Assembly: GCA_027083995.1 (NCBI GenBank)
Contig: JALWME010000087.1
Location: 1-17,984, forward strand
DNA length: 17,984 nucleotides
Source: Sulfurovum sp.
GTDB lineage: Bacteria > Campylobacterota > Campylobacteria > Campylobacterales > Sulfurovaceae
Direction: 5' to 3'
In this document: piece after piece, positions 1,626 to 17,078 of the stretch
Layout of the letters: the number at the start of each line of letters is the position of its first letter
How positions within the stretch are numbered: position 1 is the first letter of the stretch
Position numbers and translations under genes: made by a program
Notes under the pieces: model-generated
What the model saw: the letters and a program-made list of their open reading frames with translations, nothing else
Database searches by the model: none
What the model was told of the DNA's origin: nothing

Positions 1626-3151
1626 TACTTCACCTCCTTGTCTGATTTGGCTACGATGATTAACTCTTTAGCCTCTTTTGTGATGGCTTTTTCATCCATA
1701 AAGGACAACAATGCATTCACAGAGTTATCAATAGGTGTCAACACAGGCTTCGGGTAAACACCCAGCCAGATGACAATGGCAACCAATGGTATAAGTGACC
1801 AAGTCTCTCTACTGTTTAAATCTTTTAGCTTTTTGTTCTCTTCATTATCTAGTGGACCAAAGAAAGCCAACTTCATGACTCTTAACATATAGACTGCTCC
1901 TAAAATAATAGATGTACCAGCGATAATAGTCATCATAGGAGAGACTTGGTAAAACCCAAGAAGCACAAGAAACTCACCGACAAACCCTATAGTAAGTGGT
2001 AGCCCTACTGAAGCCATAAGCATCACACCAAAGATGATAGCAAACTTAGGCATCACAGCTGCAAGCCCTCCAAACTCTGATAGTAGCTTCGTATGCCTTC
2101 TTTCATAAATCATCCCTACAAGCATAAACAGAGCCCCTGAGACAATCCCATGAGAGAGCATCTGAAATACCGATCCTGAAAGCCCTTCAGAGTTCATGGC
2201 AAAAAGACCAAGCATGATAATACCCATATGCGATACAGATGAGTAGGCAATGACCTGTTTCATATCTTTTTGTGCATAAGCAATCATCGCTGTATAGACA
2301 ACCATGATAAGTGACAACACAGCTATAGGTGTAATAGCCATTACCGCAGCATCAGGAAACATAGGAAGTGAAAATCTTACAAATCCATACGTACCCATCT
2401 TAAGCAAAATAGCTGCAAGGATAACTGAACCAATAGTTGGTGCTTGTCCATGTGCATAAGGAATCCAAGTATGGAATGGGAACATAGGTACTTTAATAGC
2501 AAAACCTATAAAAAATGCTGCAAACAACCATAGCTGATAATTGACTGGCAATACCAGTGCATACCAATCTGTAATAGCAAAACTCCATACACCTGTAAGA
2601 TTATGATAAATATATGCAACAAACAACATACCTACAAGCATGATGAGTGAACCCATAAATGTATATAAGAAAAATTTGATAGATGCATAGATACGTAAAG
2701 GACCACCCCATGCACCAACAATATAGAGCATCGGTACAAGTGAAAGCTCCCAGAACAAGTAAAAGATTATTGCATCAAGTGCCACAAATACACCTATCAT
2801 CGTCATTTCCAAAAAGAGAAGCGTAATAATCATATTTTTGATATTTTTTGTCTCACCCATAGATGCCATACCAATAAGCGTCATCAATGTAGTCATAATA
2901 ATAATAAACAGTGAAATACCATCTGCACCCAAGTAGTATGATATCCCCATGTCTGGAATCAACGGTACCATCTCTACAAACTGCATACCTGCATTACTCA
3001 TATCAAAAGAGAACCATAACCATAAAGACAAAAAGAACTCTATCGTTACTACAGTGATACCGTACATTCTTATGCTCTTACTATCTACTACAAACCCCAG
3101 CAGTCCTGCAACTGCTGGAAAAAATACCAATATACTTAAAATATTTTCCAT
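1625..3151 (-). CDS. nuoM: NADH-quinone oxidoreductase subunit M (complex I)
   Basis: Second antiporter-like subunit of the complex I membrane arm. The 508-residue protein is polytopic. Key proton-path residues can be seen: Glu135 in FWELSLVPMLYIVGAWGG and Lys220 in GFAIKVPMFPFHTWIPYAHGQAP, with the QKDMKQVIAYSSVSHMG motif further on. The C-terminus is a short charged tail rich in Lys and Glu, likely cytoplasmic. The ATG is preceded by GGGAT. The gap to nuoL is 9 bases, and its stop overlaps nuoN by one base. A normal family member in canonical order. Confidence 0.97.
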   Translation of the reverse strand: MENILSILVFFPAVAGLLGFVVDSKSIRMYGITVVTIEFFLSLWLWFSFDMSNAGMQFVEMVPLIPDMGISYYLGADGISLFIIIMTTLMTLIGMASMGETKNIKNMIITLLFLEMTMIGVFVALDAIIFYLFWELSLVPMLYIVGAWGGPLRIYASIKFFLYTFMGSLIMLVGMLFVAYIYHNLTGVWSFAITDWYALVLPVNYQLWLFAAFFIGFAIKVPMFPFHTWIPYAHGQAPTIGSVILAAILLKMGTYGFVRFSLPMFPDAAVMAITPIAVLSLIMVVYTAMIAYAQKDMKQVIAYSSVSHMGIIMLGLFAMNSEGLSGSVFQMLSHGIVSGALFMLVGMIYERRHTKLLSEFGGLAAVMPKFAIIFGVMLMASVGLPLTIGFVGEFLVLLGFYQVSPMMTIIAGTSIILGAVYMLRVMKLAFFGPLDNEENKKLKDLNSRETWSLIPLVAIVIWLGVYPKPVLTPIDNSVNALLSFMDEKAITKEAKELIIVAKSDKEVK

Positions 3152-3160
3152 TTTTATCCC

Positions 3161-5080
3161 TTACACGAACATCGCTGAAATCGCAGCGACGGACAATAAT
3201 ATTACAGCTCCAACAGCCATCCAGTTAAGATAATTTGAAAGGTTACCTGTCTGCATACCTCTTGTTTTATCTCCTGTGTTATAGAAGAATTTAGCGATGC
3301 CATCTACTGTCGCATCGACTATCTTCAAGTCTACTTCTGTCCAGAACTTCTCAGACACCATTCTGTATGGTTTGGTGATAAACTCCTCATAAAACTTCGG
3401 TACATAGTACTGGTTTATAAGTAGTTTATAGAAGAAACCATTTTCAACCTCTTCATCTCTTTTCCAGGCTTTTTCCCCTGTTCTTGCATATTTATAATAC
3501 GCATAAGCTATACCTGAGACTGCTACAAAAATAACAATGAGCCCTAAATAAGTTGCCAAGTGATGCGTATGATCTGACATCTCATACTGTACTGAGTCAC
3601 CTATCTTATAGATAAACGCTTTATATGTTGACATAAACCACCCTGTGATGATAGCAAGTACAGCCAGAGGAGACATTGCTACAAGTACAAACTTATACAT
3701 TTCGTGAGGATGAAACCCTAGAGGGGTATGTCTGTCTTCACCATGGAAGGATAAAAATACTTGTCTAAATGAATAAAATGCTGTCATACCAGCAGTAATC
3801 ACAAGCACTATCCATAAGATATAAGTATGTTCATTAAATGCTGTCTCGATGATAGCATCTTTAGACCAGAAACCTGCAAGAGGAGGGAGACCAGCCAGTG
3901 CAATGGAGGCAATACCCATGTAGATCCATGTACCTCTCATTTTTTTACGCAAATCACCCATTTTAAAAAGGTCAAGTTCATCATGCATCGCATGCATAAC
4001 ATTACCCCCTCCAAGGAATAAGAGTGCCTTGAAAAATGCGTGTGCTGCAAGGTGGAAAAGTGCTATCCAGTACGCTCCAAGTCCAGCAGCGGCAAACATA
4101 TACCCAAGCTGTGAAAGTGTAGAGTAGGCAATGATACGCTTCAAATCACGTTCAACCAGTGCCATAGATGCTGCATAAAACGCCACAAATGTACCAAGGC
4201 TAGCAATAAACATACTTACCCCTGCTACCTCTTCCATAGAATAGAGAGGATTTGCTCTAATGACCAAGAACACCCCAGCTGTTACCATCGTTGCTGCGTG
4301 AATAAGTGCCGATACAGGTGTAGGTCCCTCCATCGCATCCGTAAGCCAGGTATGCAGTGGGAACTGTGCTGATTTACCCATAGCTCCTATAAAGAGTGCG
4401 ATGGCTGCTCCAATCAAAACCGTCTCAGAAAGATAAGGTAACTGTGCAAAGACTTCGTCATACTTCAAAGAACCTGTGTTCCAGTAAAGTATAAAGATAC
4501 CAACCAACATACCAAGGTCAGCAATACGGTTCATAATGAATGCTTCATTTGCTGCCCATGATGGAGAGATGGATGGGTTGTCCTCTCTGGCTTGGTCTGA
4601 TTTGTGATACCAAAAACCAACAAGTAACCAAGAACAAACTCCCACACCTTCCCAGCCTATAAATAGTCCCAAGAAGTTATCTGACATAACAAGTATCAAC
4701 ATGGAGAATACAAAGGCAGAGAGGTATGAAAAGAATCTGTTAAAACTCTTGTCGTGATCCATATAACCTATGGCATATATATGTACGATGGTAGATACAA
4801 GTGTAACGACTGTCATCATAGTCACCGATATCTGGTCAATCACAAAACCAAAAGAGACGTTAAAATCTCCAGCATCTATCCAGTCCATCATCGTGACATT
4901 GATGACTTCTCCGGTTATGTAAAGATTTGCTGCTAAAAATGCAGAGGCCAAAAATGAGATAAACAACAATGCAGATGCCACAACACCTACAAATATCTGT
5001 CTTTGACTCATCCCAAACAATGATGCAAACAGTGAGCCTGCAAACGGTGCAAAAAGTGCTACGTATACTAAACTTTCCAT
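3161..5080 (-). CDS. nuoL: NADH-quinone oxidoreductase subunit L (complex I)
   Basis: Distal antiporter-like subunit of complex I; in the family its long C-terminal amphipathic helix braces the membrane arm. The 639-residue protein shows Glu144 (IGWEGVGVCSWLLVGFW), Lys236 (GAMGKSAQFPLHTWL) and Lys408 (LAGLPPLAGFWSKDAI), the expected channel residues. The hydrophilic stretch after about residue 520 and the final hydrophobic anchor (about 617-639) fit the lateral helix and last transmembrane segment. The start ATG lies one base after the nuoK stop, with GAGAGGAT as ribosome binding site inside the end of nuoK, implying tight coupling. Confidence 0.97.
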   Translation of the reverse strand: MESLVYVALFAPFAGSLFASLFGMSQRQIFVGVVASALLFISFLASAFLAANLYITGEVINVTMMDWIDAGDFNVSFGFVIDQISVTMMTVVTLVSTIVHIYAIGYMDHDKSFNRFFSYLSAFVFSMLILVMSDNFLGLFIGWEGVGVCSWLLVGFWYHKSDQAREDNPSISPSWAANEAFIMNRIADLGMLVGIFILYWNTGSLKYDEVFAQLPYLSETVLIGAAIALFIGAMGKSAQFPLHTWLTDAMEGPTPVSALIHAATMVTAGVFLVIRANPLYSMEEVAGVSMFIASLGTFVAFYAASMALVERDLKRIIAYSTLSQLGYMFAAAGLGAYWIALFHLAAHAFFKALLFLGGGNVMHAMHDELDLFKMGDLRKKMRGTWIYMGIASIALAGLPPLAGFWSKDAIIETAFNEHTYILWIVLVITAGMTAFYSFRQVFLSFHGEDRHTPLGFHPHEMYKFVLVAMSPLAVLAIITGWFMSTYKAFIYKIGDSVQYEMSDHTHHLATYLGLIVIFVAVSGIAYAYYKYARTGEKAWKRDEEVENGFFYKLLINQYYVPKFYEEFITKPYRMVSEKFWTEVDLKIVDATVDGIAKFFYNTGDKTRGMQTGNLSNYLNWMAVGAVILLSVAAISAMFV

Positions 5081-5081
5081 A

Positions 5082-5384
5082 TTATCCTCTCATATTTGCT
5101 AGGTCATCTAAGTCAAGAGAACCATGTTTTTTATATAGTACTATCAAGATACCAAGTCCCACTGCCACTTCAGATGCTGCAATAGCAATGATAAAAAAGG
5201 CAAACATCTGACCTGTTAGGTCATTGTAGTAGTGAGAAATAGCTGCAAATGCTATATTGACTGCATTAAGCATTACTTCTGTTGCAAAGAAAAGCATCAA
5301 AAGGTTTCTTCTTCTTAATACTCCCATAAGCCCTATAGAAAAGAGTATTGCTGATATGATTAGGTAATGCGAGAGCCCTATCAT
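5082..5384 (-). CDS. nuoK: NADH-quinone oxidoreductase subunit K (complex I)
   Basis: Small membrane subunit (100 residues, three predicted helices) that contributes a proton half-channel next to NuoJ and NuoN. The two buried carboxylates known to matter in E. coli NuoK are present at the usual places: Glu36 (FFATEVMLNAVN) and Glu72 (AASEVAVGLGI). The arginine-rich loop LRRRN at 23-27 is the conserved cytoplasmic loop. The ATG overlaps the nuoJ stop by four bases (ATGA), a typical coupled junction, and nuoL begins one base after its stop. Confidence 0.97.
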   Translation of the reverse strand: MIGLSHYLIISAILFSIGLMGVLRRRNLLMLFFATEVMLNAVNIAFAAISHYYNDLTGQMFAFFIIAIAASEVAVGLGILIVLYKKHGSLDLDDLANMRG

Positions 5385-5974
5385 TTTTCATCCTTTATTA
5401 TCATAATTTCATCATCGGCACTTAAGTCTTCTGTAAGTGACTCTTCCATTTTCTTACCTGCGAGTATAATCCCTGCTATCATTGCAACAAGTAACATCAC
5501 CGCCGCTACTTCAAATGGTATAAGATACTTTGTAAAAAGTACCATACCTACATCCTGTGCATTTCCCACACCCTCATGCATAGGGTAGAGTGCAGTGATA
5601 TTCTCTGAATAGATAGGTGCTGCAAACATCAGCACCAGTACCAATGCAGACAGACCACCAAGCAAAAAGACCAAAGCGTTGTTTGTATTTTTTTCTTTGA
5701 TCTCTCTGGTGGCATCAAAAAACATCATAGCAAAGGCATACAAAGCCATAACCGCTCCCACATAGACCACCAATTGAACTACTCCTAGGAAATCTGCCCC
5801 CAAGATAAAGAAAAAGCCTGAGATAAGTACCATTCCTGCTGCCAATGCTGTCATTGCATACAAGATATTTTTACTTATCACAGTGACCAAAAAGAGTCCT
5901 GTAATCAAAAGAGAGAAGAGATAAAACGCAAATCCCTCTATAGTCATCAAAGATGCCAAAAAGTTTTCAAACAT
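5381..5974 (-). CDS. nuoJ: NADH-quinone oxidoreductase subunit J (complex I)
   Basis: Membrane subunit of complex I, 197 residues with about five helices. The third-helix region reads FLGVVQLVVYVGAVMALYAFAMM, the conserved NuoJ signature containing the helix that changes conformation in the catalytic cycle. After the last helix (about 150-172) there is a short acidic cytoplasmic tail rich in Asp and Glu. A good ribosome binding site (CTAGGAGGGATA) precedes the ATG. Gap to nuoI is 12 bases, the longest inside this unit, and it overlaps nuoK by four bases. Confidence 0.96.
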   Translation of the reverse strand: MFENFLASLMTIEGFAFYLFSLLITGLFLVTVISKNILYAMTALAAGMVLISGFFFILGADFLGVVQLVVYVGAVMALYAFAMMFFDATREIKEKNTNNALVFLLGGLSALVLVLMFAAPIYSENITALYPMHEGVGNAQDVGMVLFTKYLIPFEVAAVMLLVAMIAGIILAGKKMEESLTEDLSADDEIMIIKDEK

Positions 5975-5986
5975 ATCCTATCCCTC

Positions 5987-6610
5987 CTAGTATGCTAATG
6001 GTGTTTTTTTGATGTTTTCATCTGCATTTGGAGAGATAGCACCAAAACCATCATACTCTTGTTGCAAATTCAACTTATCTATAGGTGTTAACATGTCTTC
6101 AAAAAGCGAAAACCCTGCTCTTTGTTCTGCTGCATTTTCATATCTAGGTCCGTGTACAATGGCAAGTTCTGGACATACTTCTGCACAGTAACCACAAAAG
6201 ATACAACGCCCAAAATTAATGGTATATTCACTCACTTCCTTACGTTGCTCTTCATCATATCTGGTATCCATAGCGATACAGTTTGAAATACATATCTTTT
6301 CACACAAACCACAACCAATACATCTATAATTACCAGACTCCAATAACCTTAGCATATCATGAATAGCTCTGTATCTTGGAGAGATAGGCAGTTTTTCAAA
6401 AGGATACTTCACTGTATGCATATCACCTCCAAAGAGTGCTTTAAGCATCGCTTTCATAGTCACCCCAAGTCCCACAAATAGTTCAGGTTTAAGCGTACGT
6501 TTTACGACTTGCTTAAACTGGCATCTCCACCCTTCGGGTTTTTTCCCTACGTCTAATGTAATGTAGTTTTGTCTACCTACATTTCTGTCTTTAAATTGTT
6601 CTAAACTCAT
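5987..6610 (-). CDS. nuoI: NADH-quinone oxidoreductase subunit I, 2x[4Fe-4S] (complex I)
   Basis: Peripheral-arm ferredoxin-like subunit carrying clusters N6a and N6b, which pass electrons from NuoG to NuoB. The 207-residue protein has two CxxCxxCxxxC motifs: Cys97, 100, 103, 107 and Cys136, 139, 142, 146. The second ends in the usual CP. The first is followed by Ile instead of Pro and has an additional Cys111 (CISNC), a departure from the common bacterial form. The N-terminal 60 residues resemble the membrane-associated helix of NuoI. The C-terminal tail after residue 160 has no motif I recognise. Ribosome binding site AAGGAG lies 9 bases from nuoH's stop region. Confidence 0.97.
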   Translation of the reverse strand: MSLEQFKDRNVGRQNYITLDVGKKPEGWRCQFKQVVKRTLKPELFVGLGVTMKAMLKALFGGDMHTVKYPFEKLPISPRYRAIHDMLRLLESGNYRCIGCGLCEKICISNCIAMDTRYDEEQRKEVSEYTINFGRCIFCGYCAEVCPELAIVHGPRYENAAEQRAGFSLFEDMLTPIDKLNLQQEYDGFGAISPNADENIKKTPLAY

Positions 6611-6619
6611 ACCTACTCC

Positions 6620-7654
6620 TTATACCAATATCACTATGGCAGTAATCAAAATATTTAGCAACGCTATTGGCATCAATACTTTCCAACAAAACCACATCAA
6701 CTGATCTGGTCTTATATGTGGCCAAGAAGCTCTTACCCACAACATAAGGAAAAAGAAACCTGCTATTTTAAGCATGATAAAAAGCCATCCTAAAAAACCA
6801 TCTGCATCATACCCACCCAAGAAGACTACTGAAGCGATAATAGCAACCGTAATCATGTTGGCATACTCACCAATGAAAAACATACCCCACCTCATACCTG
6901 AATACTCTGTTGCGTATCCAGAGACTACTTCTGCCTCATGTTCAAGTAGGTCAAATGGTGTTCTGTTTGTCTCAGCAAATCCTGCGATAAGAAAAAGTAT
7001 AAAAGCTACTGGCTGTTGCCAGATAAGCCATGAGCCTACGCCTCCACTTTGATAGTCGTTAAACTCTACAAACGAAAGTGAACCTACAAGCATAATAGGT
7101 GCCAAGATTGAAAGCCCGGTAACCACTTCATAAGATAAAAACTGCACAGCTGTTCTAGCCGCTCCAATGATACCCCATTTGTTTGCCTGAGACATACCTG
7201 CCAGTAGTGGCCCATAAAGTCCTGCTGCCATCATACCCAGTACAAACAAAATACCTACATTGACATCTGAGGCAATTGAAGGTACAAATGTACCACCAAT
7301 GAGGGGCATAAACTCAGGTACAGTAAAATCAGGAAACACAGGCACAGCGGACAAAGCAATAAACGCTGTAGCCGCTGTGATAATCGGTGCTATCATAAAA
7401 ATGAGTTTGTTTGCATTTTGTGGGATGATGTCTTCTTTGGTAAAAAGCTTTATCCCATCTGCTGCAATTTGAAGTACGCCGTAAGGACCTACGTGCATTG
7501 GTCCCAAACGTCTTTGCATAAATGCCAATACTTTTCTCTCTATAAACGTACCAAATCCTGCCAAGGCAGAAAGTACAGCCAAAATAATCACTGCTTTTAT
7601 AATGACACCCAGTGCTGTCACTTGTGGTAAGTTTTCTACTAATGTTGCTTCCAT
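6620..7654 (-). CDS. nuoH: NADH-quinone oxidoreductase subunit H (complex I)
   Basis: Membrane subunit that forms most of the quinone-binding chamber at the junction of the two arms. The 344-residue polytopic protein carries the first cytoplasmic loop ERKVLAFMQRRLGP (39-52) followed by GPYGVLQIAADGIKLFTKED, and the acidic loop AETNRTPFDLLEHEAE (227-242) followed by GYATEYSGM, both lining the quinone channel in known structures. Near the C-terminus is WVRASWPHIRPDQLMWFCWK, also conserved. Starts one base after the nuoG stop, with AAAGGTG as ribosome binding site within the last codons of nuoG. Confidence 0.97.
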   Translation of the reverse strand: MEATLVENLPQVTALGVIIKAVIILAVLSALAGFGTFIERKVLAFMQRRLGPMHVGPYGVLQIAADGIKLFTKEDIIPQNANKLIFMIAPIITAATAFIALSAVPVFPDFTVPEFMPLIGGTFVPSIASDVNVGILFVLGMMAAGLYGPLLAGMSQANKWGIIGAARTAVQFLSYEVVTGLSILAPIMLVGSLSFVEFNDYQSGGVGSWLIWQQPVAFILFLIAGFAETNRTPFDLLEHEAEVVSGYATEYSGMRWGMFFIGEYANMITVAIIASVVFLGGYDADGFLGWLFIMLKIAGFFFLMLWVRASWPHIRPDQLMWFCWKVLMPIALLNILITAIVILV

Positions 7655-7655
7655 C

Positions 7656-10136
7656 TTACACCTTTCTTAATGTTACTGTTTTGTATCTGCTCCCAGAAAA
7701 GAGGTCATAGACACCTTCTGCGGCTCTATAGTCAGGTACTTTTACGATATCACCTGTAATTTTTGTATCTGTTAACACATCTAAGATGATGCTTCCACTG
7801 TCAAATACAACTTCTACTTTATCACCTAGGCTTGCCGCTTTTTCTTCACTTGCATAAAGCCCAAATGCTTCAAATATTTCATGTGATTTATCTGTAAAGT
7901 CGTTAAATTGTCTAGCAGGGTTACATCTGTACGCTATCTCTCCATCAAGCACAGCATTTTCATCAAAAGTATCTACTTTGGGAAGTGCTGTTTCAGCACT
8001 GCTGGCTTCCAGTATATATCCACGGTTGTCTTTACCATCATTGGTAAATGTATTTGGTAAGGCATCAAAATCTAAAGATTTAAACCCTCTGTCTATCGGG
8101 AGTATTGCAGTCCAGTCAACAGTAAGTTCTGGGGCACCTACAAGTTCTTTCATGAGGTCATTCAGTTCATAGCCGTTGTACTCTACTGCCGCATTGGTAG
8201 GAAGCACACGTTTGCCTATATTACACAAAGTACCCTCTTGTTGGTTCATCGCTGGCATATCCAAATCGCCAGTACCCAAAGCAGAGAGTTTAAAGTCTCC
8301 ATTTTCGTTATATCCTACTGTATATCCACTTGCATCGTCATCAAGGTCACAGATGAGTGCAACACCTAGTGCATTTGATTTAGGGGGTGTCATCACCACA
8401 CTGATGTCACAGGTAGATTCTATCAGTGCCACAAGTTTAGCAATATTTTCTGCTTTTTCGTGATAATAAAGGTCTTCTCCAAGCATCATAGCAAAAGACT
8501 CTTTTTTCTTCATCATTTTTGCAAAAGTATCTTCAAAAGTAGCAGAGTCTCCGCCAAGTAGATCCACCAAACCATTGCTTGTCACAGTAATCTCTTTTTC
8601 TACTTTCTCTTTGACTTTCTTTTCTACTTCCTCTTCTTCCCCTGTCTCTTCGTTTAGTACCATCTCTTTGACTGTTTTTTCAACACGTTCTGTAATAGTC
8701 TTCGTCTCTGACTTGTGGAAAGTAGCTAGATAATCTTTTACCTCTGAAGGTAATTTATCTTTGTCTGCAAACAAATCAAGTATCAGATAAAGTACAGCTT
8801 CTTCCAGCCCTACTTTATGGTTAAAAATTTCAACACTTTTACCAAAGGTAGGGATAAGTGTATCTCCAACGGGATGGAAGTAAAGTCCTGCTCCCTTGTT
8901 GAGCTTTTGCACATTATTGAATGCATACTTCATCGCAGGAGAGTCATTTCTCATTGCCATCCCAACAGAGATAACAAAATCAGCATTTTTCATAATAGTG
9001 TCTGTATCTGTAGACCAAAGGCTGTTTCCAGATGCTGCTTCATAGTGATTTAGGAATTTCTGGAAAGCCCGTACTTCAGGGTTGAAAAGCTTGAGTCCCA
9101 TTTTTTCTTTGAGTGTTTGAAGCATCAATGCTTCCTCATTGGTAATCATGGCATTGAAACGTACTGTCTTGGCTTTTTTAAATGCTTCTATCGCTGCATC
9201 AAAAGCTGCTTTATTTTTGCTTGCTGTTGTGTTTTGAAAATCATAGGCAAAACGTGCTGAACCATCTAATGAAACATAGGACCATTCGTTGGTAACTCTA
9301 AAAATTTTCTCTGTTCTGTTTTCTATAGAAGTAGGTTTGACTTCATAATATATCTGGGCTCCATCACTTGAGTGTGCTGCAACTGCTGGTACTCTCTTTA
9401 AATCCCATGCATTCGAACTATACACAAAGTCACGTGATGCCAATGCCCCTACAGGACATACAGCAATACACTCACCACAATCAGAACAGTTTGTTTCACC
9501 TGTACCATTACTAGGAGCGATAACAGACTTTTGTAGTTTGTTCCACATAGAGTAAGCATCCTTAGGCATGGTCTCTTTATATCCCTTGTCTAGTTCTGCC
9601 CCTCCACGTTTGGCAGTAGTGATAGCTGCATCACCTATCATGTCTTTACAGACAGTGGTACAACGCTCACATACAATACATAAACCTGGGTCATAATGTA
9701 ATACGGATGACCAGTTTGTTGTTTCACGTTTGGTATCTGGTATCATGTATGATTGTGAATCAACACCAAGCTCAAGTGTGTAGTTTTGTAACTCACACTC
9801 TCCTGATTTGTCACAGACACCACATTGAAGCGGATGATTTACATCATACACTTCCATGATGGCTCTACGTTCTTCAAGTATAGTTGGGGTAGAAGTAGTC
9901 ACTTCCATTCCCTCTTTTACTTTTGCATTACAGGCATATACTTGCTTGCCATCTGCTTCTACCAGACAGATACGACACGCCAGAGTTGGCGAACATCTTG
10001 TCAGGTAGCATATAGCAGGAATAAAGATATCATTAGCCCTAGCAGCATTAAGGATATACTCTCCCTCTTTAGCCTTATACTCCACACCATCAATTGAGAT
10101 GTCGACCATATTATTTACATTTTGTACTTCACCCAT
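7656..10136 (-). CDS. nuoG: NADH-quinone oxidoreductase subunit G, iron-sulfur (complex I)
   Basis: Electron-input iron-sulfur subunit, 826 residues. N-terminal [2Fe-2S] ligands are Cys43, 54, 57, 69. The His-Cys3 cluster is His101, Cys105, 108, 114. Two full CxxCxxCxxxC motifs follow: Cys153, 156, 159, 163 and Cys217, 220, 223, 227 (the last in CPVGAL). Ordinary NuoG has only three cysteines in the first motif plus the CPVGAL cysteine, so this version seems able to hold an extra [4Fe-4S] cluster, as in [FeFe]-hydrogenase N-termini. The N7-type cysteines are absent. Residues about 310-820 match the degenerate molybdopterin-oxidoreductase fold, interrupted by a highly charged Lys/Glu segment at 475-520. 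The first ATG is chosen because AGGAAAT precedes it; Met10 has no such site. No nuoE/nuoF pair lies upstream; fqrB is divergent. Confidence 0.95.
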   Translation of the reverse strand: MGEVQNVNNMVDISIDGVEYKAKEGEYILNAARANDIFIPAICYLTRCSPTLACRICLVEADGKQVYACNAKVKEGMEVTTSTPTILEERRAIMEVYDVNHPLQCGVCDKSGECELQNYTLELGVDSQSYMIPDTKRETTNWSSVLHYDPGLCIVCERCTTVCKDMIGDAAITTAKRGGAELDKGYKETMPKDAYSMWNKLQKSVIAPSNGTGETNCSDCGECIAVCPVGALASRDFVYSSNAWDLKRVPAVAAHSSDGAQIYYEVKPTSIENRTEKIFRVTNEWSYVSLDGSARFAYDFQNTTASKNKAAFDAAIEAFKKAKTVRFNAMITNEEALMLQTLKEKMGLKLFNPEVRAFQKFLNHYEAASGNSLWSTDTDTIMKNADFVISVGMAMRNDSPAMKYAFNNVQKLNKGAGLYFHPVGDTLIPTFGKSVEIFNHKVGLEEAVLYLILDLFADKDKLPSEVKDYLATFHKSETKTITERVEKTVKEMVLNEETGEEEEVEKKVKEKVEKEITVTSNGLVDLLGGDSATFEDTFAKMMKKKESFAMMLGEDLYYHEKAENIAKLVALIESTCDISVVMTPPKSNALGVALICDLDDDASGYTVGYNENGDFKLSALGTGDLDMPAMNQQEGTLCNIGKRVLPTNAAVEYNGYELNDLMKELVGAPELTVDWTAILPIDRGFKSLDFDALPNTFTNDGKDNRGYILEASSAETALPKVDTFDENAVLDGEIAYRCNPARQFNDFTDKSHEIFEAFGLYASEEKAASLGDKVEVVFDSGSIILDVLTDTKITGDIVKVPDYRAAEGVYDLFSGSRYKTVTLRKV

Positions 10137-10227
10137 TGTTATTTCCTATTTTTTCAATATGATAAATTTAGTATGAGGATATCAAAGAAGCACTTAATAC
10201 TACATCATAATACATATCTATGATTTT

Positions 10228-10256
10228 ATTATCATCCAAGATGTATCGTATGTAAA
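10228..10256 (-). promoter_or_regulatory. Probable sigma70 promoter of nuoGHIJKLMN
   Basis: On the minus strand TTTACA (10256-10251) and GATAAT (10233-10228) are separated by exactly 17 bases; each differs by one base from the sigma70 consensus. Transcription would start near 10221, giving a leader of about 85 bases before the nuoG ATG. It explains how the second half of the nuo cluster is expressed although fqrB and kefB cut it off from nuoA. A second TATAAT at 10285-10280 on the same strand is an alternative -10. Confidence 0.55.
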
Positions 10257-10298
10257 CACACCTATTATCTATAGTTACTATTATAAATATATATTTAA

Positions 10299-10304
10299 TA
10301 TAAT
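10299..10304 (+). promoter_or_regulatory. Probable -10 box of fqrB promoter
   Basis: A perfect TATAAT on the plus strand sits in an AT-rich tract, about 44 bases before the fqrB ATG. No good -35 box is visible (TACTAT at the right distance), which is common in Campylobacterota, where A/T-periodic upstream DNA replaces it. Predicted leader is about 37 bases and includes ribosome binding site AAGGA (10336-10340). It is back to back with the nuoG promoter within 211 bases, so shared control is possible. Confidence 0.5.
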
Positions 10305-10347
10305 TTATGCTAATATCCCAAAACTATTAACACATAAGGACATAAAT

Positions 10348-11340
10348 ATGGCTTCAGAAAACATATATGACATTGCAATCATTGGTGCAGGACCTGGTGG
10401 TATGGCTTCTGCCATCGAAGCAAAACTAGCAGGTATTGATAATATAGTTGTGGTTGATAAAGCAGAGACGCATAACTACATGATTCACAAGTTTTACAAA
10501 AAAGGAAAAAGAGTAGATAGAGACTGGATGGGTATCAAGTTTGAATTTGAGGGAAATGTAACTTTTGAAGAGTGTTCAAAAGAAGAGTACATTAAACAAA
10601 TGGATGATTTACTTGCAAGCCATGGTGTTTTAGATAAATTTGTATATAACACGGAGGTTGCTTATGCCAAAAAGGGCGAGGATGGTTTGTTTCATATCCC
10701 ATTTGGTCAAGATGTTGTCAAAGCAAAAAATGTTATCGTATCTGTAGGTAGAATGGGTAAACCAAACAAACCAGGATACAAATTTCCTAAAGCTATTAGA
10801 CCTAGACTAAACTTCAACCTTTCAGATGTACAAAATGGTGAAAGAGTAATGGTAGTCGGTGGTGGAGATACTGCTGGTGAATATGCTTATGGTCTCGTTG
10901 AGATGGAGGGTATGGAAGATTGTAAAGTCACACTAAACTACAGAAAACCAACCATTACAAGAATGAATCCTATCAACACAGAGATGACAATGAAACACCT
11001 TGAAGAGGGTACACTTATCAATAAAATGGGTGTAGATGTTGAGAGTGTTGAGGCCACAGAAGATGAACTTGTAAAAGTAAACTTTACAGATGGCACATCA
11101 GAAGTATATGATAGAGTTGTCTATGCACTTGGCGGAACAAGTCCGAAAGATTTTCTTGTAAATTCAGATATAGAAACCGGTAAATGGGATGAACCGCTTA
11201 TGGATGAAAAGACACTTGAGACAAATATCAAAGGTCTTTACACCATTGGTGATGTAGTCACAGACCAAGGCAGTATCGCACTTGCATTTAACCACGCTTA
11301 TTTTGCGATGAGTGATATCGTAGCTAAAAACCAAATATAA
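10348..11340 (+). CDS. fqrB: FqrB-like NADPH:flavodoxin/quinone oxidoreductase (FAD)
   Basis: A cytoplasmic two-dinucleotide-domain flavoprotein of the thioredoxin-reductase fold, 330 residues. The FAD-binding GAGPGG is at 13-18, the NADPH-domain GGGDTAGEYA at 171-180 and the C-terminal FAD motif YTIGD at 298-302. The thioredoxin-reductase CxxC is missing; the only cysteines are Cys76 and Cys192. The KFYKKGKRVDRDW segment (48-60) recalls Helicobacter HP1164/Campylobacter Cj0559 (FqrB), described as reversibly moving electrons between NADPH and flavodoxin. I name it by memory of that family; a YpdA-like or ferredoxin-NADP reductase assignment is the alternative. It has its own promoter and terminator, is transcribed away from nuoG, and faces kefB convergently. 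Its site beside a complex I lacking NuoF suggests a link to complex I electron input (inference). Confidence 0.78.
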   Translation: MASENIYDIAIIGAGPGGMASAIEAKLAGIDNIVVVDKAETHNYMIHKFYKKGKRVDRDWMGIKFEFEGNVTFEECSKEEYIKQMDDLLASHGVLDKFVYNTEVAYAKKGEDGLFHIPFGQDVVKAKNVIVSVGRMGKPNKPGYKFPKAIRPRLNFNLSDVQNGERVMVVGGGDTAGEYAYGLVEMEGMEDCKVTLNYRKPTITRMNPINTEMTMKHLEEGTLINKMGVDVESVEATEDELVKVNFTDGTSEVYDRVVYALGGTSPKDFLVNSDIETGKWDEPLMDEKTLETNIKGLYTIGDVVTDQGSIALAFNHAYFAMSDIVAKNQI

Positions 11341-11353
11341 ACCTACCTCTATA

Positions 11354-11395
11354 AGAACAGGGTTTAATTACCTGTTCTGTATTTTAATTCTTTTT
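11354..11395 (+). terminator. Rho-independent terminator of fqrB
   Basis: An 8-bp stem, AGAACAGG (11354-11361) with CCTGTTCT (11371-11378), and a 9-base loop are followed by a T-rich run ending in six Ts. It starts 13 bases after the fqrB stop. The tail on the other strand is not U-rich, so it works mainly for fqrB, although kefB ends just beyond it. Confidence 0.75.
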
Positions 11396-12996
11396 TATAC
11401 CTTCAAAACCTGGTCAAACATAGCAATAGCTGTTTTCTCTGTCTCAATAATAACATGTGTGAGGTTTAAATCCTCTAATGCTTCTTTGTCTTCAAATCTA
11501 TCTACTTTTACAATAGTCTTTGCATTATTAGTAAGTTCATTCACTACCTGGCATATATGATAAAGTTTTTGACTGTTTCCAAGAGAGATAACAACGGCTG
11601 AAGCTTCCTTGATGTTGACTGATTCCAAAATATCTTTTTGAGCAGCATTACCAAAGATAACAGGCATACCTTTTTTTCTAGCATCTTTCACAGTTTTTAT
11701 ATCTCCCTCAATAGCAATAAATTCCATACCTACCTTTTGCATAAGTGCTGAAATATGCTGTCCTAGCCTTCCATAACCTATGATTACCACATGGTTGAAA
11801 AGTTTTTTATCTTCATGTTTTGTATAGTGGTTATCTTCTAAACTATTTTTATCTAAGAGATTTGCAATAGAAGAGATATTTCTTAGAACAAAAGGAGTCA
11901 TAATCATAGAAATAACCACAGTGACAATAAGAATTTGACCTAACACTAGGTCAAGCAAGCCATTTGCAAAAGCAAGTTCAAAGATAACAAGTGCAAACTC
12001 TCCAAGTTGAAACAGACTCAAAGAAGTTTTAAAAGCATTACGCTTGTTAACAGAAAATCGAACCAGTGAAAATATAATAAGCATTTTTATAGCGATGAGT
12101 GCTGGCAAAAGATAGGAAATAGTCAAAATGTTGTCATATATAATTTTAAAATCAAGTTGCATACCTACCGTGACAAAAAATACACCAAGCAACAAGTCTC
12201 TAAAAGGTATAAGATCAGCCTCTACTTGATGTTTATAGTGTGTATCAGATATCATCATCCCTGCTATAAATGCTCCTAAAGAGTAGGAAAACCCCATAAG
12301 GTGTGCCACATAAGAAGATCCTATAACAATAAGTAAAATGGAAGATATAAATATCTCATTTGACTTAACTTCAGAAATCTTTTGAAAAAAAGGATCTAAA
12401 AAATACTTACCCACAACAAACAATCCTATAATAAGAATAATAGCTTTTATCAGTGTAAGCAGTAGCAAATTAGAGACAGAGCCAGTATTAATAGAAAAAA
12501 TGGTTATCATAAGCAATATAGGAATAACTGCTATGTCTTGAAACAGGAGTATTCCTAATACTTTTCTTCCATAGGTCTTGTTGATATCTCCATTTTCATT
12601 TAAAATTTTAAGAACAATAGCTGTTGAAGATAGTGCAAGTGCTGCCCCTATGACGATAGCCTCTTTCATCTCAATAGAAAAAAAACTATAGGCAATAATG
12701 CTAAATAGTGTCGCAGTTAGCACTACTTGTAGTCCGCCATAGAAAAAAACATCTCCTTTCATCTTTATAAGATGTTTGAGAGAAAATTCAAGTCCAATGG
12801 TAAACATAAGAAATACTACACCAAACTCTGCTATTTCTTTAAGTTCATGGCTATGTACTGCTTGATGGAGTCCAAAAACATAGGCAATAATAGTTCCTGT
12901 CGCAATATATCCTACAATAGTGGGTATATCAAACTGTTTCAAAGAAAGATTGATAAGTGTAGCTATAAAAATAGCTGAAACAATAATCTCCAACAT
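11395..12996 (-). CDS. KefB/KefC-type monovalent cation:H+ antiporter (CPA2) with RCK domain
   Basis: Inner-membrane cation/proton antiporter, most likely K+ efflux. The chosen start (533 residues) follows AAAGGGC at proper distance; an in-frame ATG at 13041 would add 15 residues but has no ribosome binding site. Residues about 1-380 are the hydrophobic Na+/H+-exchanger domain, including FQDIAVIP (152-159) typical of Kef proteins. Residues about 400-520 are a TrkA-N (RCK) nucleotide-binding domain with GYGRLG at 407-412 and an acidic residue at the end of the next strand (AIEGD). A gating nucleotide is probable; glutathione control as in E. coli KefC cannot be inferred. It is monocistronic or fed by read-through from the NuoE-like gene, and it interrupts the nuo cluster. 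Function in relation to complex I is unknown; exact substrate is unproven. Confidence 0.88.
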   Translation of the reverse strand: MLEIIVSAIFIATLINLSLKQFDIPTIVGYIATGTIIAYVFGLHQAVHSHELKEIAEFGVVFLMFTIGLEFSLKHLIKMKGDVFFYGGLQVVLTATLFSIIAYSFFSIEMKEAIVIGAALALSSTAIVLKILNENGDINKTYGRKVLGILLFQDIAVIPILLMITIFSINTGSVSNLLLLTLIKAIILIIGLFVVGKYFLDPFFQKISEVKSNEIFISSILLIVIGSSYVAHLMGFSYSLGAFIAGMMISDTHYKHQVEADLIPFRDLLLGVFFVTVGMQLDFKIIYDNILTISYLLPALIAIKMLIIFSLVRFSVNKRNAFKTSLSLFQLGEFALVIFELAFANGLLDLVLGQILIVTVVISMIMTPFVLRNISSIANLLDKNSLEDNHYTKHEDKKLFNHVVIIGYGRLGQHISALMQKVGMEFIAIEGDIKTVKDARKKGMPVIFGNAAQKDILESVNIKEASAVVISLGNSQKLYHICQVVNELTNNAKTIVKVDRFEDKEALEDLNLTHVIIETEKTAIAMFDQVLKV

Positions 12997-13058
12997 ATTT
13001 TGCCCTTTAAATATAGATGAGATATAGTAGCTAAATAACAATAGTATTTACATTTTCT

Positions 13059-13181: not shown

Positions 13182-13517
13182 TTAAGCTTTTTCTTTTTCA
13201 GCAGCTGCTTTAGCAATTTCTGCTTCCTTTTCTTCTGCTTCTTTTTTTGCGATAGTAAATGCCTCTGCAGATTTTTTGGCAGTCTCTGCATCTACTTTTT
13301 TTACTACAAGTGTCCAATCTACTTCATTGAATTTCAAAGAGTTCATGAGTTCATGTCCACTCGCATAGATAGCATCTGCAGACTTTTGGATAGAAGAATA
13401 ATCCCCTACTTCAAACAAAAATATTGCTACTTCATCTACTTTAATACCTTGATCTATAAGCTCAAGCATCCTATCATAAAAATCATCATGCAGATGTCTT
13501 AAATCGTAACGTTTCAT
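13182..13517 (-). CDS. Small NuoE-like complex I-associated protein (HP1264/Cj1575c type)
   Basis: A 111-residue soluble protein occupying the place of nuoE. It begins [17 protein letters not shown] and has a mixed alpha/beta look up to about residue 75, similar in position and size to Helicobacter HP1264 and Campylobacter Cj1575c, which are linked to complex I and replace canonical NuoE. It has no cysteine at all, so it cannot hold the NuoE [2Fe-2S] cluster. Residues 76-111 form a Lys/Glu/Ala-rich, probably helical tail. Its ATG overlaps the nuoD stop by one base (TAATG), with GAGGT upstream, so it is co-translated with nuoD. The family assignment rests on position and general likeness. In those relatives a second gene (HP1265/Cj1574c) follows; here none does. 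Confidence 0.75.
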   Translation of the reverse strand: MKRYDLRHLHDDFYDRMLELIDQGIKVDEVAIFLFEVGDYSSIQKSADAIYASGHELMNSLKFNEVDWTLVVKKVDAETAKKSAEAFTIAKKEAEEKEAEIAKAAAEKEKA

Positions 13518-14746
13518 TATCTATCTACCTCTCCAAATACAATATTGGTTGTACCAATTATAGTAACAACATCAGCGATATATGTACCTACCAAAAGCTC
13601 CTGTAAGAGTCCTGTATGGAAAAATGAAGGTGCTCTACATTTAAGTCTGTATGCGTAAGGCTCACCTTCTGACTTAATGTAAAAACCAAGTTCTCCTTTA
13701 GGAGATTCCGTAGGTACATAAACTTCACCTTTTGGTGGTCTCATACCCTGTGTTACCAATACAAAGTGTTGCATAAGTGCATAGTTTTGTGTCATTATCT
13801 CTTCTTTAGGAGCAGAGATATACTTAGGAGAGTGTGCCATAAGTTGTGGTTCAGTCTCTTTATACATTGGGATGAGTTGTCTTATAATTTTTGTAGATTG
13901 TTTCATCTCTTCCATATAGAGTCTAAACCTACCATATGAATCACATCTGTCAGATACAGGTATATCAAAGTCAAGTTCAGAGTAAAGCTCGTAAGGCTCT
14001 TCTTTTCTAATGTCGTACTTTATACCAGACCCTCTAAGCATAATACCAGAACATCCCCAACTTTGTGCATCTTCTGCAGAGATAACCCCTACATCTTCCA
14101 GACGCATTTTCCAAATACGGTTTTCATTAAGCAGTGCACCGTAAGTATGCTCCACTTCATGGTCTACTTTGTCACAAAATGCTGCCGCATTTTCTAGCCA
14201 ACCTGCAGGTAAATCAAGTGGTACACCACCTATGCGTACAGCTGAGTGTGTAAGTCTGGCACCACAGTAATCTTCCATAAGATCCATCGCAAATTCACGT
14301 TCACGGAATGCATACAAAAACACAGACATCGCACCAACATCAAGAGCATGTGTTGCCACAAAGAAAAGATGTGAGATGATACGGTTAAGTTCCAAAAGTA
14401 TAGTACGAATCACTTGTGCACGTCTTGGTGCTTCTATATCTAAAAGCTTTTCTACTGCCAATGCATAGGCATAGTTGTTTGACGTAGATGCTATATAGTC
14501 TAGTCTATCTGTTGTTGGCAAGAACTCATTATATGTCATATTCTCTGCCATTTTTTCTATACCGCGGTGCAGGTATCCTATATCTGGATAGGCTTTTACT
14601 ACCTGTTCTCCATTAAGCTCAAGGACCAGCCTCAACTGTCCATGTGCAGAAGGGTGTTGAGGTCCAAAGTTAATAACCATGGTATTGTCATCACGTTCAA
14701 AATTGAGATTTTCAAAAAATGGTGATAATTTATTTGCTACTTGCAT
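13517..14746 (-). CDS. nuoD: NADH-quinone oxidoreductase subunit D (complex I, 49-kDa)
   Basis: Peripheral subunit related to the large subunit of [NiFe]-hydrogenases; with NuoB and NuoH it forms the quinone reduction site. The 409-residue protein shows [10 protein letters not shown] (27-36), whose His31 and His35 line the quinone pocket, and Tyr84 in [10 protein letters not shown], the tyrosine that holds the quinone headgroup in characterised enzymes. The C-terminus ends GEVDR as usual. It is a stand-alone NuoD and not fused to NuoC. Ribosome binding site AGGGAG; 9 bases from nuoC; its stop overlaps the next gene's ATG. Confidence 0.97.
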
Positions 14747-14755
14747 ACGTACTCC

Positions 14756-15532
14756 CTATTTTCTTTCGTCTAACATTTTAGACGCTTTTTTGTTATAATT
14801 AACGAGTACTGTTTCACTATATTCTATCTCTTGTTCTACTTCAGAATACTCTGAACCAAATGGCACTTCATACCCTACTCTTGTAAAGCGTTTTGTATCT
14901 TCTATATCTATCTTGGCAGGATCTCTGTTTTCAGGTCCAATGATGTCTCTGTACTCTTTACCAAAGATTTTGTCCACCTCATACCATGATGCGGCCTCAT
15001 CACCAAAAAGAGGATAGGTTTTAAGAAGAGGGTGTCCTTCCCAGTCATCAGGCATAATGATACGCTTAAGGAAAGGGTGGTTATTTACTTTGATACCAAA
15101 CATATCAAACATCTCACGCTCTGCGAAATTAGCAGACTTAAAAAGTGGCACTACACTCTCTATAGCCAGCCCCTGTTCTAAGCGAGTCACTACCCTTACT
15201 CTTTTTGCTTCATTATGATTAAGTAGTTGCCAAAAAAGTTCAAAGTTACCATCTTTTGCCAAGTAGTCTACAGCTGATTGTTCTGAACATTGCTTATATC
15301 CACAAGCTTCTTTGAGAATAGTCAGTACTTCAAAGTTATCTGCAGCATCAATATGTACCACCAGTTGACTTACTTCAATATAGTACTCTTTAATCAAAGT
15401 ACCCAATGCCTCTACCACAGAGAGAAAATGTGTATCTTCTACTGCTGCTCTAGGTACACGAGGAGAAACCCAAAATCTATCTGTATAGTAGGCCTTAGCT
15501 TGAACGTTATCTTTAGGAACATATTTTCTCAT
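14756..15532 (-). CDS. nuoC: NADH-quinone oxidoreductase subunit C (complex I, 30-kDa)
   Basis: Peripheral connecting subunit that scaffolds NuoD and NuoB; it carries no cofactor. The 258 residues include the family signature EREMFDMFGI (138-147), then HPFLKRIIMPDDWEGHPL (152-169), where the common HPLRKDYP reads HPLLKTYP. The roughly 80 residues after the signature exceed the shorter bacterial NuoC and resemble the long Campylobacterota form. The ATG overlaps the nuoB stop by one base (TAATG). Confidence 0.95.
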   Translation of the reverse strand: MRKYVPKDNVQAKAYYTDRFWVSPRVPRAAVEDTHFLSVVEALGTLIKEYYIEVSQLVVHIDAADNFEVLTILKEACGYKQCSEQSAVDYLAKDGNFELFWQLLNHNEAKRVRVVTRLEQGLAIESVVPLFKSANFAEREMFDMFGIKVNNHPFLKRIIMPDDWEGHPLLKTYPLFGDEAASWYEVDKIFGKEYRDIIGPENRDPAKIDIEDTKRFTRVGYEVPFGSEYSEVEQEIEYSETVLVNYNKKASKMLDERK

Positions 15533-16074
15533 TAGATTAACCTCACTCTTTTGCCTGTTTGATTTGTTAAATCTTGCTTGGTATTATTTTTCATATCTGC
15601 AGATTCTCTACGTATCTTCTTTTGAAGCATCATCAGTGCATACTGTAGTGTCTCAGGTCTAGGAGCACACCCTGGCAGGTAGATATCTACAGGGATGATA
15701 CGATCAACCCCTTGTACCGTTGCATAGGTGTTAAACATACCACCAGTGTTTGCACAACTTCCCATAGATATAACCCACTTAGGCTCTGTCATCTGGTCAT
15801 ACAGACGTCTGGCAAACTCTGCATGCTTTTTAGAAAGTGTTCCTGCAAGTATCATGACATCTGCTTGTCTAGGACTTGCTCTAAAGATCGTTCCCAGTCT
15901 ATCGAAGTCATATCGTGATGCTCCAGATGCCATCATCTCAATGGCACAACATGCCAGTCCATAGGTAAGCGGCCAAAGTGAATTTGAACGTCCCCAGTTT
16001 ACGAGTTTGTCTACCGAAGTCAGTGCTATCGGCAATCCAGCTGAACTGGCATAATTTACTTGATGCTGTGCCAT
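15532..16074 (-). CDS. nuoB: NADH-quinone oxidoreductase subunit B, [4Fe-4S] N2 (complex I)
   Basis: Carries the terminal cluster N2 that reduces quinone. The 180 residues include the ligand set Cys42-Cys43 (LACCAIEMM), Cys107 (MGSCANTGG) and Cys136 (LPGCAPRPE), all at family positions. The tail after about residue 155 is polar and lacks conservation that I recognise. A strong ribosome binding site (AAGGAG) lies inside nuoA, and the start overlaps the nuoA coding end by 19 bases, an unusually long overlap for this cluster but clearly supported by that site. Confidence 0.97.
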
Positions 16075-16445
16075 TCAAGTGCTCCTTTTTTCCATGCATA
16101 TACGAAACCAATCGTAAGTAATAATATAAATAGTAACATCTCTACAAAACCAAACCAACCAAGCAATTTAAAGTCAATCGCCCATGGAAACATAAAGATA
16201 ATCTCTACATCAAACAAGATAAACAAAAGTGCTATCAGATAAAACTGTGCAGAAATAGTGTTAGGTTGCTTAGTGACCTCTGGCCCACACTCATAAATAG
16301 AAAGTTTAAGCCTTTCTGTGTCAAGACGTGCAAATTTTCTAGATACAAAACGTGCAGCCCAAAGCGTTGCTGTAAATGCTATAGAAGTCATAGCAAACAA
16401 AACAAAGACACCAAAATATGGATGTTCTGTGATAACATGCGTCAT
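16056..16445 (-). CDS. nuoA: NADH-quinone oxidoreductase subunit A (complex I)
   Basis: Small membrane subunit, 129 residues with three helices (about 12-32, 67-90, 95-117). The long loop after helix 1 holds the conserved YECGPE (50-55) with the single cysteine that is accessible in the deactive state of mitochondrial complex I (ND3). The loop and the segment [22 protein letters not shown] identify the family. First gene of the nuoABCD unit, preceded by AAGGGATT as ribosome binding site and a probable promoter about 50 bases upstream. Confidence 0.96.
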
Positions 16446-16623: not shown

Positions 16624-16671
16624 ATGCCAACAAGTATTAAAATTCACTGCAAGCGAAGCACTAAATGTTAA
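16624..16671 (+). CDS. Putative 15-residue leader peptide, coupled to rhodanese
   Basis: A very short ORF, MPTSIKIHCKRSTKC, has the best ribosome binding site of the region (AAAAGGAG, 8 bases from ATG). Its stop (TAA, 16669-16671) overlaps the ATG of the rhodanese gene at 16665, a 7-base overlap in another frame. The rhodanese ATG itself has no Shine-Dalgarno match, so ribosomes ending the leader probably reinitiate there. The peptide is basic and has two cysteines, one as the last residue. A role in sensing cysteine supply is conceivable. It could alternatively be only a ribosome-loading device with no product function. Confidence 0.5.
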   Translation: MPTSIKIHCKRSTKC

Positions 16672-17078
16672 ATCATAAAAAATATACTAACATACTATAT
16701 TGGCTGGCTATGCTGGCAATGTTATTTTGGTTTGCATACTCTAAAGGTTGGATTTTGGCAAATTTCCAGTCTGTTGATGCCTCAGAGGCGATTGCACTCA
16801 TAGAAAATGATAACAATATCACAGTACTTGATGTCCGTACCATTCCAGAGTATAAAGAAGGCCACCTGCAAGATGCCACACTTATACCACTTCAGGCTCT
16901 AGCTCAAAACTTAGGCATGCTCAAACATGACAAGCACAAAAAAATACTTGTCTACTGTGCTACAGGTAATCGTTCTGTGGCTGCTTCACGTATTTTGGAA
17001 GAAAATGGGTTTACGCCTGTTAATGTCAAGGGGGGTATCATCTCTCTGCAAGGTTTTGGTGTAGAAGTAGTGAAATGA
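16665..17078 (+). CDS. Membrane-anchored, probably periplasmic rhodanese-like sulfurtransferase
   Basis: A single-domain rhodanese of 137 residues. Residues about 9-25 form one hydrophobic segment after a positively charged start (HKK), so the catalytic domain should face the periplasm as a signal-anchored or secreted protein. The domain (about 36-137) has LDVRTIPEYKEGH (55-67) and the active loop CATGNRS at 98-104, with Cys98 as the persulfide carrier. The conserved Asp56 and Arg58 are present, so it should be active. The physiological sulfur donor is unknown; single-domain periplasmic rhodaneses suit organisms handling thiosulfate or sulfide. No recognisable ribosome binding site; translation likely depends on the overlapping leader ORF. 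Ends in a hairpin shared with the convergent gene. Confidence 0.88.
   Translation: MLNHKKYTNILYWLAMLAMLFWFAYSKGWILANFQSVDASEAIALIENDNNITVLDVRTIPEYKEGHLQDATLIPLQALAQNLGMLKHDKHKKILVYCATGNRSVAASRILEENGFTPVNVKGGIISLQGFGVEVVK

Follow-up and report, generated by a model that had tools for sequence, protein, structure and literature searches.

To our knowledge, it is not settled how the NuoEF-less complex I of the Campylobacterota exchanges electrons with soluble carriers, nor by what route this phylum's sulfur-oxidising autotrophs make NADPH and reduced ferredoxin. The Sulfurovum sp. contig analysed here raises both questions. In this stretch of 17,984 nucleotides (the window), a minus-strand complex I (nuo) cluster of the Sulfurovum type is broken into two blocks, and a gene for an FqrB-like flavoprotein lies between them. 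Does this protein exchange electrons with complex I and, if so, through which partner?

A flavoprotein gene within a split nuo cluster

The window contains the following features:

135..7654, minus strand: nuoH, nuoI, nuoJ, nuoK, nuoL, nuoM and nuoN (nuoI from family searches, the rest from gene order and sequence)
7656..10136, minus strand: nuoG, Fe-S subunit (open reading frame and family searches)
10137..10347, no strand: divergent intergenic region between fqrB and nuoG, with a degenerate 19-bp dyad-like element (sequence)
10348..11340, plus strand: FqrB-like flavoprotein of 330 residues, clade "FqrB-A" (open reading frame, Pfam, tree and model)
11395..13041, minus strand: Kef-type (CPA2) cation:proton antiporter, between fqrB and nuoX
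13182..13517, minus strand: nuoX (PF16514; 2lxr type), 111 residues (open reading frame, families and match to 2lxr)
13517..16445, minus strand: nuoA, nuoB, nuoC and nuoD (nuoD from family searches, the others from gene order and sequence)
16665-17078: rhodanese-domain gene, divergent from nuoA (Pfam)

Because the cluster is split around the antiporter and fqrB genes, which separate nuoABCD-nuoX (13182-16445) from nuoG-N (135-10136), fqrB lies inside the nuo locus and is not merely adjacent to it, a point absent from the earlier note on this DNA. Two claims of that note are borne out here. The fqrB gene (start at 10348) diverges from nuoG (start at 10136) over 211 bases, and complex I lacks NuoEF: neither subunit was found in the window's nuo cluster by open reading frames and family searches, and only NuoX follows nuoD, in the place where nuoE would be expected. 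NuoG is likely to be the point at which electrons enter or leave the complex. The antiporter gene had no match in the DNA available around the 37 FqrB-A loci of relatives (see below), where the corresponding gap is occupied by other genes or by none. The rhodanese-domain gene is present in 8 of 16 Sulfurovum-type loci; it is absent from three that extend past nuoA (L005, L006 and L037), and the remaining five stop before nuoA.

The same note had placed promoters for both genes in the intergenic region, a claim that we could not uphold: a scan of positions 9900-11700 returned 9 promoter-like sites when 8.3 (sd 3.8) were expected by chance. A 19-bp dyad-like element, GTGTATCAATTTTAAACAC, occurs with 0-2 mismatches in all 16 Sulfurovum-type loci, where it precedes the nuoG match by about 123-195 bp (positions in relatives: L005:8437, L006:9680, L007:9744, L026:9560, L037:9679); the background in shuffled sequence is 0.013 per kb at up to 4 mismatches. 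In L013, L015 and L030 it falls inside the 3' end of a remnant of a second NuoG (NuoG2, described below). The window copy, at about 10241-10259, is degenerate, with 5 of 19 positions differing as counted by eye.

A survey of clade A with one genome per species (84,980 species) yielded 37 loci, two of them from one genome. Sixteen are of the Sulfurovum type (15 titled Sulfurovum, plus L004), and in every one the FqrB-A gene diverges from nuoG, with a NuoG2 remnant interposed in L013, L015 and L030. At ten others, titled Sulfurimonas, Sulfuricurvum or unclassified, the gene shares its strand with nuoA and precedes it by 0.3-6.6 kb, and at one it follows nuoN by 2.6 kb. No nuo gene is visible at the remaining ten; five of these sit on contigs of 3.6-10 kb (L012, L016, L027, L028 and L029), and five have more flanking sequence yet no nuo gene near (L020, L024 and L035 from Sulfuricurvum; L031 and L032 from Sulfurimonas). 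We also examined 130 genomes of the Sulfurovum family (that of G001, which carries L001, titled Sulfurovum). FqrB-A was found in 18 of them and stands beside nuo genes in all 18. In 15, the contig with FqrB-A also carries nuoD, at most about 3.1 kb away; in the other three (G014, G289 and G324, the last equated with L008 via coordinates) FqrB-A abuts nuoG and nuoD is on another contig. A conserved neighbourhood of this kind, the check that the earlier note had called for, rules out chance adjacency. Six further genomes (G019, G021, G043, G054, G055 and G101), presumably Nautiliales, have FqrB-A together with only distant relatives of NuoD, so FqrB-A is not bound to the NuoEF-less complex I everywhere.

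Some other features of these loci deserve mention. L031 carries a tandem pair of FqrB-A genes in a Sulfurimonas MAG (6427-8602), and G008 likewise has a pair, of which one gene directly precedes nuoA and the other lies elsewhere. A gene for a 578-residue AAA ATPase occurs near nuoA and fqrB at L014:13857-15593, L018:8090-9826 and L034:1077-2813 (identified by Pfam for L014, and by a similar N-terminus and length for L018 and L034), and several Sulfurovum loci contain similar open reading frames of 576-578 residues.

FqrB-A, canonical FqrB and the fused subunit of complex I

In a tree of 84 sequences, built by a quick method with groups assigned by bit score (L082, labelled B by that score, is placed inside clade A), the FqrB family divides into clades A and B, which separate at an SH-aLRT of 100, with 0.91 changes per column on the branch between them. 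Among the members of clade B are two proteins from Campylobacter lari and C. avium that are named FqrB (P0123 and P0165), cluster P0158 of C. jejuni and, going by identity, the FqrB of most genomes of a phylum-wide sample. Clade A consists of the window protein and those of other Sulfurovum, Sulfurimonas and Sulfuricurvum together with the six genomes mentioned above. FqrB-A is 39% identical to C. jejuni FqrB, 37% to a Helicobacter-like FqrB and 41-51% to the clade B proteins of the Sulfurovum family. Judged by these comparisons, it is a sister clade and not an orthologue of characterised FqrB. The assignment made in the earlier note is thus half right: fold and motifs are FqrB-like, but the protein falls outside the clade of characterised FqrB.

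FqrB-A has fold class, length, motifs and NADP-site residues in common with the FqrB of C. jejuni and Helicobacter. The settings of the genes differ: in four genomes a distance of about 1 kb separates canonical fqrB from a flavodoxin gene, whereas FqrB-A sits at nuo and the FqrB-A genomes searched have no intact flavodoxin. The four, identified by coordinates, are G034, G083, G116 (L109) and G151. When the result rows were inspected by eye, canonical fqrB was seen near nuo in G020, G193 and G048 (about 4.3 kb from nuoA) and 7-9 kb from nuoD in G264 and G278. The latter two were the only ones with a distance under 10 kb among nine family genomes carrying canonical fqrB and nuo on one contig, which makes close linkage to nuo mainly a trait of clade A.

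The gap between nuoX and nuoG has a different content in many relatives, where it holds a fused subunit of about 680 residues composed of the C-terminal Fe-S region of NuoF (PF10589), a Fer4_20 region and a GltD-like FAD/NADPH unit (PF14691, PF07992). In L089, L090, L091 and L102 this subunit is followed by NuoG2. Two examples inside nuo clusters are:

L090:6889-8931: fused NuoF-C/Fer4_20/GltD-like subunit
L089:8340-10385: fused NuoF-C/Fer4_20/GltD-like subunit

The solved relatives of the larger part of the fused subunit include Nfn subunits, a 1172-residue chain of StnC length, dihydropyrimidine dehydrogenases and glutamate synthase small chains; database names for the protein range from "FAD-dependent oxidoreductase" and "formate dehydrogenase" to "NADPH-Fe(3+) oxidoreductase" (member P0288). 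With NuoG2 it resembles the GltD-NuoG modules of the SfrAB/StnC/NfnB type, in which a GltD-like NADPH/FAD domain and Fe-S domains stand beside a NuoG-like part or are fused to it. It differs from those modules in being encoded within the complex I cluster, and the window's cluster has no such subunit. Our literature search turned up no publication describing either a complex I with the fused subunit or the replacement of that subunit, which does not disprove that one exists.

FqrB-A and the fused subunit exclude each other almost completely. Within the Sulfurovum family the fused subunit is present in 102 of 130 genomes, namely in none of the 18 with FqrB-A and in 102 of the 112 others. Seven of the ten genomes with neither gene lack a nuoD match at E <= 1e-60; of the rest, G297 and G307 have their nuoD at the end of a contig, and the sole nuoD of G291 is divergent. 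The picture is similar in the Sulfurimonas family (that of G007), in which 92 of 101 genomes, and 91 of the 94 without FqrB-A, have the fused subunit. Six of its seven FqrB-A genomes lack it (G007, G008, G011, G015, G386 and G397), and the seventh, G371, has both, with FqrB-A on a 3.7-kb contig. The other genomes of that family without the fused subunit have a divergent nuoD only (G343), a divergent and a partial one (G341) or none (G378). Across the phylum sample, 45 of 200 genomes carry the fused subunit. Any FqrB (E <= 1e-30) is missing from 7 of these 45 and from 1 of the other 155, the latter being G121, which has a divergent nuoD only. Fisher tests on such co-occurrence counts ignore kinship, and genomes without a match were found partly by subtraction from full match lists (8 of 28 for the fused subunit in the Sulfurovum family and 17 of 37 for flavodoxin in the phylum sample, among others). 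For the window and for L002, L010, L011, L014, L017, L018, L022, L025 and L026, absence of the fused subunit was judged at the nuo locus alone; going by its relatives, the window organism probably has no copy elsewhere in its genome.

NuoG2 follows the same pattern. In clade A clusters it is either missing, as in the window and its closest kin, or cut down to some 300-500 residues corresponding to its C-terminal part, the first 200 or more residues being gone with most of the Fe-S cysteines. Loss of the NADP(H) arm and presence of FqrB-A therefore go together. The remnant in L014 is 57% identical to residues 206-748 of the L091 NuoG2 and keeps the last four-Cys motif; those in L015, L018 and L030 start beyond this motif or lack it. 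The NuoY of L088, from a Campylobacter-like cluster, weakly matches the same C-terminal part. More generally, NuoY-type proteins resemble the C-terminal remnants at about 24-57% identity over the matched stretches, the match being weak for L083 and L088. Proteins of these two kinds are found at:

L014:19142-20650: NuoY-type/NuoG2-remnant protein
L018:14503-15396: NuoY-type/NuoG2-remnant protein
L030:8355-9701: NuoY-type/NuoG2-remnant protein
L083:3287-4114: NuoY-type/NuoG2-remnant protein
L088:8444-9160: NuoY-type/NuoG2-remnant protein

Kinship was taken into account with a NuoBCD tree of 93 loci, built by a quick method with trait labels entered by hand. Its 56 rows without FqrB-A were hand-picked from genomes with the fused subunit, genomes whose slot is not intact, for example G291, G297 and G307, were left out, and L033 and L116, which are one genome, count twice as identical rows. 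Well-supported branches show at least 8 changes of the FqrB-A label, and the best tree shows 11. Eight independent pairs of loci could be formed; the fused subunit was distributed oppositely to FqrB-A in seven and did not differ in one (sign test, p 0.016). Moreover, the FqrB-A genes found in the Sulfurovum slot fail to form a single clade (AU p 3e-11 with a careful tree method, for a group named after sight of the first FqrB tree), so on more than one occasion the slot acquired a gene or had its gene replaced. In L026, L030, L033 and their kin, FqrB-A groups with Sulfurimonas and Sulfuricurvum and the nuo genes with Sulfurovum. Simple vertical inheritance of the neighbourhood is insufficient to explain these results. 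FqrB-A and the fused subunit have been exchanged repeatedly, and a nuo-linked sister clade of FqrB appears to replace the NADP(H) arm that complex I otherwise has built in. The functional tie between flavoprotein and complex I that the earlier note drew from position is strengthened by this exchange with an NADPH-type complex I subunit, as well as by the conserved neighbourhood.

Could FqrB-A be a divergent FqrB that has taken over the general task of passing electrons between POR, a carrier and NADPH, with proximity to nuo and loss of the fused subunit both incidental? FqrB-A and canonical FqrB seldom coexist: 2 of the 18 Sulfurovum-family genomes with FqrB-A have both, and 81 of the 112 others have the canonical protein, so that part of the pattern may reflect the exchange of one FqrB for another. 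Such a view also accommodates the copies unlinked to nuo and the six genomes with FqrB-A in which the NuoEF-less type of complex I is missing. It does not explain why the exchange with the fused subunit should recur in seven of eight independent pairs, why the slot genes should differ in origin, or why G002, G308 and G397 should have lost no canonical FqrB, carry FqrB-A and be without the fused subunit. It is further at odds with the 27 of 31 Sulfurovum-family genomes without any FqrB that carry the fused subunit. We consider plain replacement of an orthologue unlikely, although it deserves to be taken seriously.

The FqrB-A protein

The preferred reading is that FqrB-A is a ferredoxin:NADP+ oxidoreductase of the thioredoxin-reductase type which stands in for the lost NADP(H) arm of complex I; on balance we think it probable, by a modest measure. 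Pfam matches to Pyr_redox_3 (148 bits) and Pyr_redox_2 (100 bits) predict one dinucleotide-binding domain of FAD type and one of NADP type, and the only two cysteines are scattered (positions 76 and 192), so there is no CxxC; the earlier note had likewise described two dinucleotide domains and no CxxC. Its conserved motifs suggest that it binds FAD and NADPH, and residues Y198, R199 and R205, common to clade B, presumably form the NADP site, as their role in related enzymes would indicate. In an AlphaFold model (mean pLDDT 89), the best PDB matches by E-value are thioredoxin-reductase-like ferredoxin-NADP+ oxidoreductases, 3ab1 (E 1.8e-22; presumably from Chlorobaculum) and the Bacillus enzymes 3lzw and 6gas, with YpdA and thioredoxin reductases ranking close behind. 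Identity to 3ab1, 3lzw and 6gas is 20-22%, and, unlike theirs, the partner and activity of FqrB-A are predictions. TM-scores of the model to the FNR entries are about 0.5, which we would attribute to a rotation of the two domains; those to 5nii, a thioredoxin reductase, are 0.64-0.70.

The family matches are confined to flavin/pyridine-nucleotide oxidoreductases, and Pfam detected neither the NuoF Fe-S region (PF10589) nor the NuoF FMN domain in FqrB-A, which could be an analogue of the NuoF-containing N-module at most. This bears on the idea that FqrB-A binds NuoG or NuoX as a peripheral subunit and delivers NADPH electrons without a soluble carrier. One could imagine that the Campylobacterota have several times swapped an Fe-S-rich NADPH module, consisting of the fused subunit and NuoG2, for one small flavoprotein at the same locus, FqrB-A being a docked, exchangeable N-module. 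The position of the gene, in the very gap between nuoX and nuoG where relatives have their fused NADPH-type subunit, and the retention of NuoX speak for it. The protein, however, has no Fe-S domain or docking domain beyond what clade B FqrB possesses, and Sulfuricurvum has copies unlinked to nuo. We find docking doubtful, and an exchangeable docked module just as doubtful; were it real, complex I would be a machine into which alternative NADP(H) heads can be plugged.

That FqrB-A is a YpdA-type (bacillithiol) disulfide reductase placed at nuo by chance is highly improbable: TIGR04018 (YpdA) is its top NCBIfam model and YpdA entries are among the fold matches of the predicted structure, but the score (66.4 bits) is far under the cut-off of 339.9 bits, this model is the first match of two FqrB proteins from clade B as well, again below the cut-off (125 and 96 bits), the first glycine motif (GAGPGG, residues 13-18) has Gly where YpdA has its catalytic Cys, and the linkage to nuo is conserved. 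The outcome that the earlier note had named as a refutation, a best family match to YpdA, was thus encountered in name, at a score that leaves the YpdA identity rejected.

The electron carrier and the direction of flow

The carrier named in the earlier note was flavodoxin, which we searched for with PF00258 in the phylum (200) and Sulfurovum-family (130) samples. A match was present in 163 of the 200 phylum genomes and in none of the seven with FqrB-A. The Sulfurovum family gave matches in 23 of 130 genomes; among the 18 with FqrB-A only G014 had one, weak and covering 77 of 143 positions. Altogether 23 of the 24 distinct FqrB-A genomes searched, all from these two samples (G001 is in both), had no flavodoxin match. 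Since the majority of the family's clade B genomes likewise gave none (17 of 81 genomes with canonical FqrB had a match), the lack is not peculiar to clade A in the Sulfurovum family. The window organism, if it resembles its relatives, would have no flavodoxin either. In C. jejuni, flavodoxin is described in PMC4178425 and PMC6682613 as acting through Cj1574c (NuoY), probably with Cj1575c (NuoX). The complex I of that organism (Weerakoon and Olson 2008, cited through PMC6682613 and PMC4178425) resembles the window's in that NuoEF is replaced and NuoX present. Unlike it, the window has no NuoY, and the searched relatives with FqrB-A have no intact flavodoxin. We therefore find flavodoxin unsupported as the partner of FqrB-A and regard ferredoxin, by exclusion, as the likely one. 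Proteomic data on Sulfurospirillum have been read, in PMC4585668, as pointing to ferredoxin as the donor to the epsilon-type complex I.

The path of electrons would then run from NADPH to the FAD of FqrB-A, to ferredoxin, to the Fe-S clusters of NuoG and to quinone, each step being reversible. In most relatives, the corresponding NADP(H) arm would be the fused subunit with NuoG2, encoded inside the nuo operon. Sulfurovum fixes CO2 by the reductive TCA cycle. Sulfurimonas does so too, according to PMC4584964. The main direction of flow may thus be the reverse one, with electrons from quinol driven by the proton-motive force through complex I to ferredoxin, which would serve the reductive TCA cycle and pass electrons on to NADPH through FqrB-A. 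We favour reverse flow because autotrophs need both reduced ferredoxin and NADPH and because Nautilia has been proposed to make NAD(P)H by passing electrons in reverse through a partial complex I (PMC2628731). FqrB-A would probably run backwards in these autotrophs. Both its coupling to complex I and the direction of flow are what we infer from the arguments above.

The strong part of this case is the pattern of exchange, while the biochemistry of FqrB-A, deduced from its sequence, is putative. The pattern makes the question of electron supply testable, in that NADPH-type parts have been repeatedly exchanged, often at the same place, among close relatives that can be compared. It also suggests that the flavodoxin model of C. 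jejuni should not be transferred to these relatives. If FqrB-A does stand in for the lost arm, this would help to account for how an odd complex I exchanges electrons with the rest of the cell.
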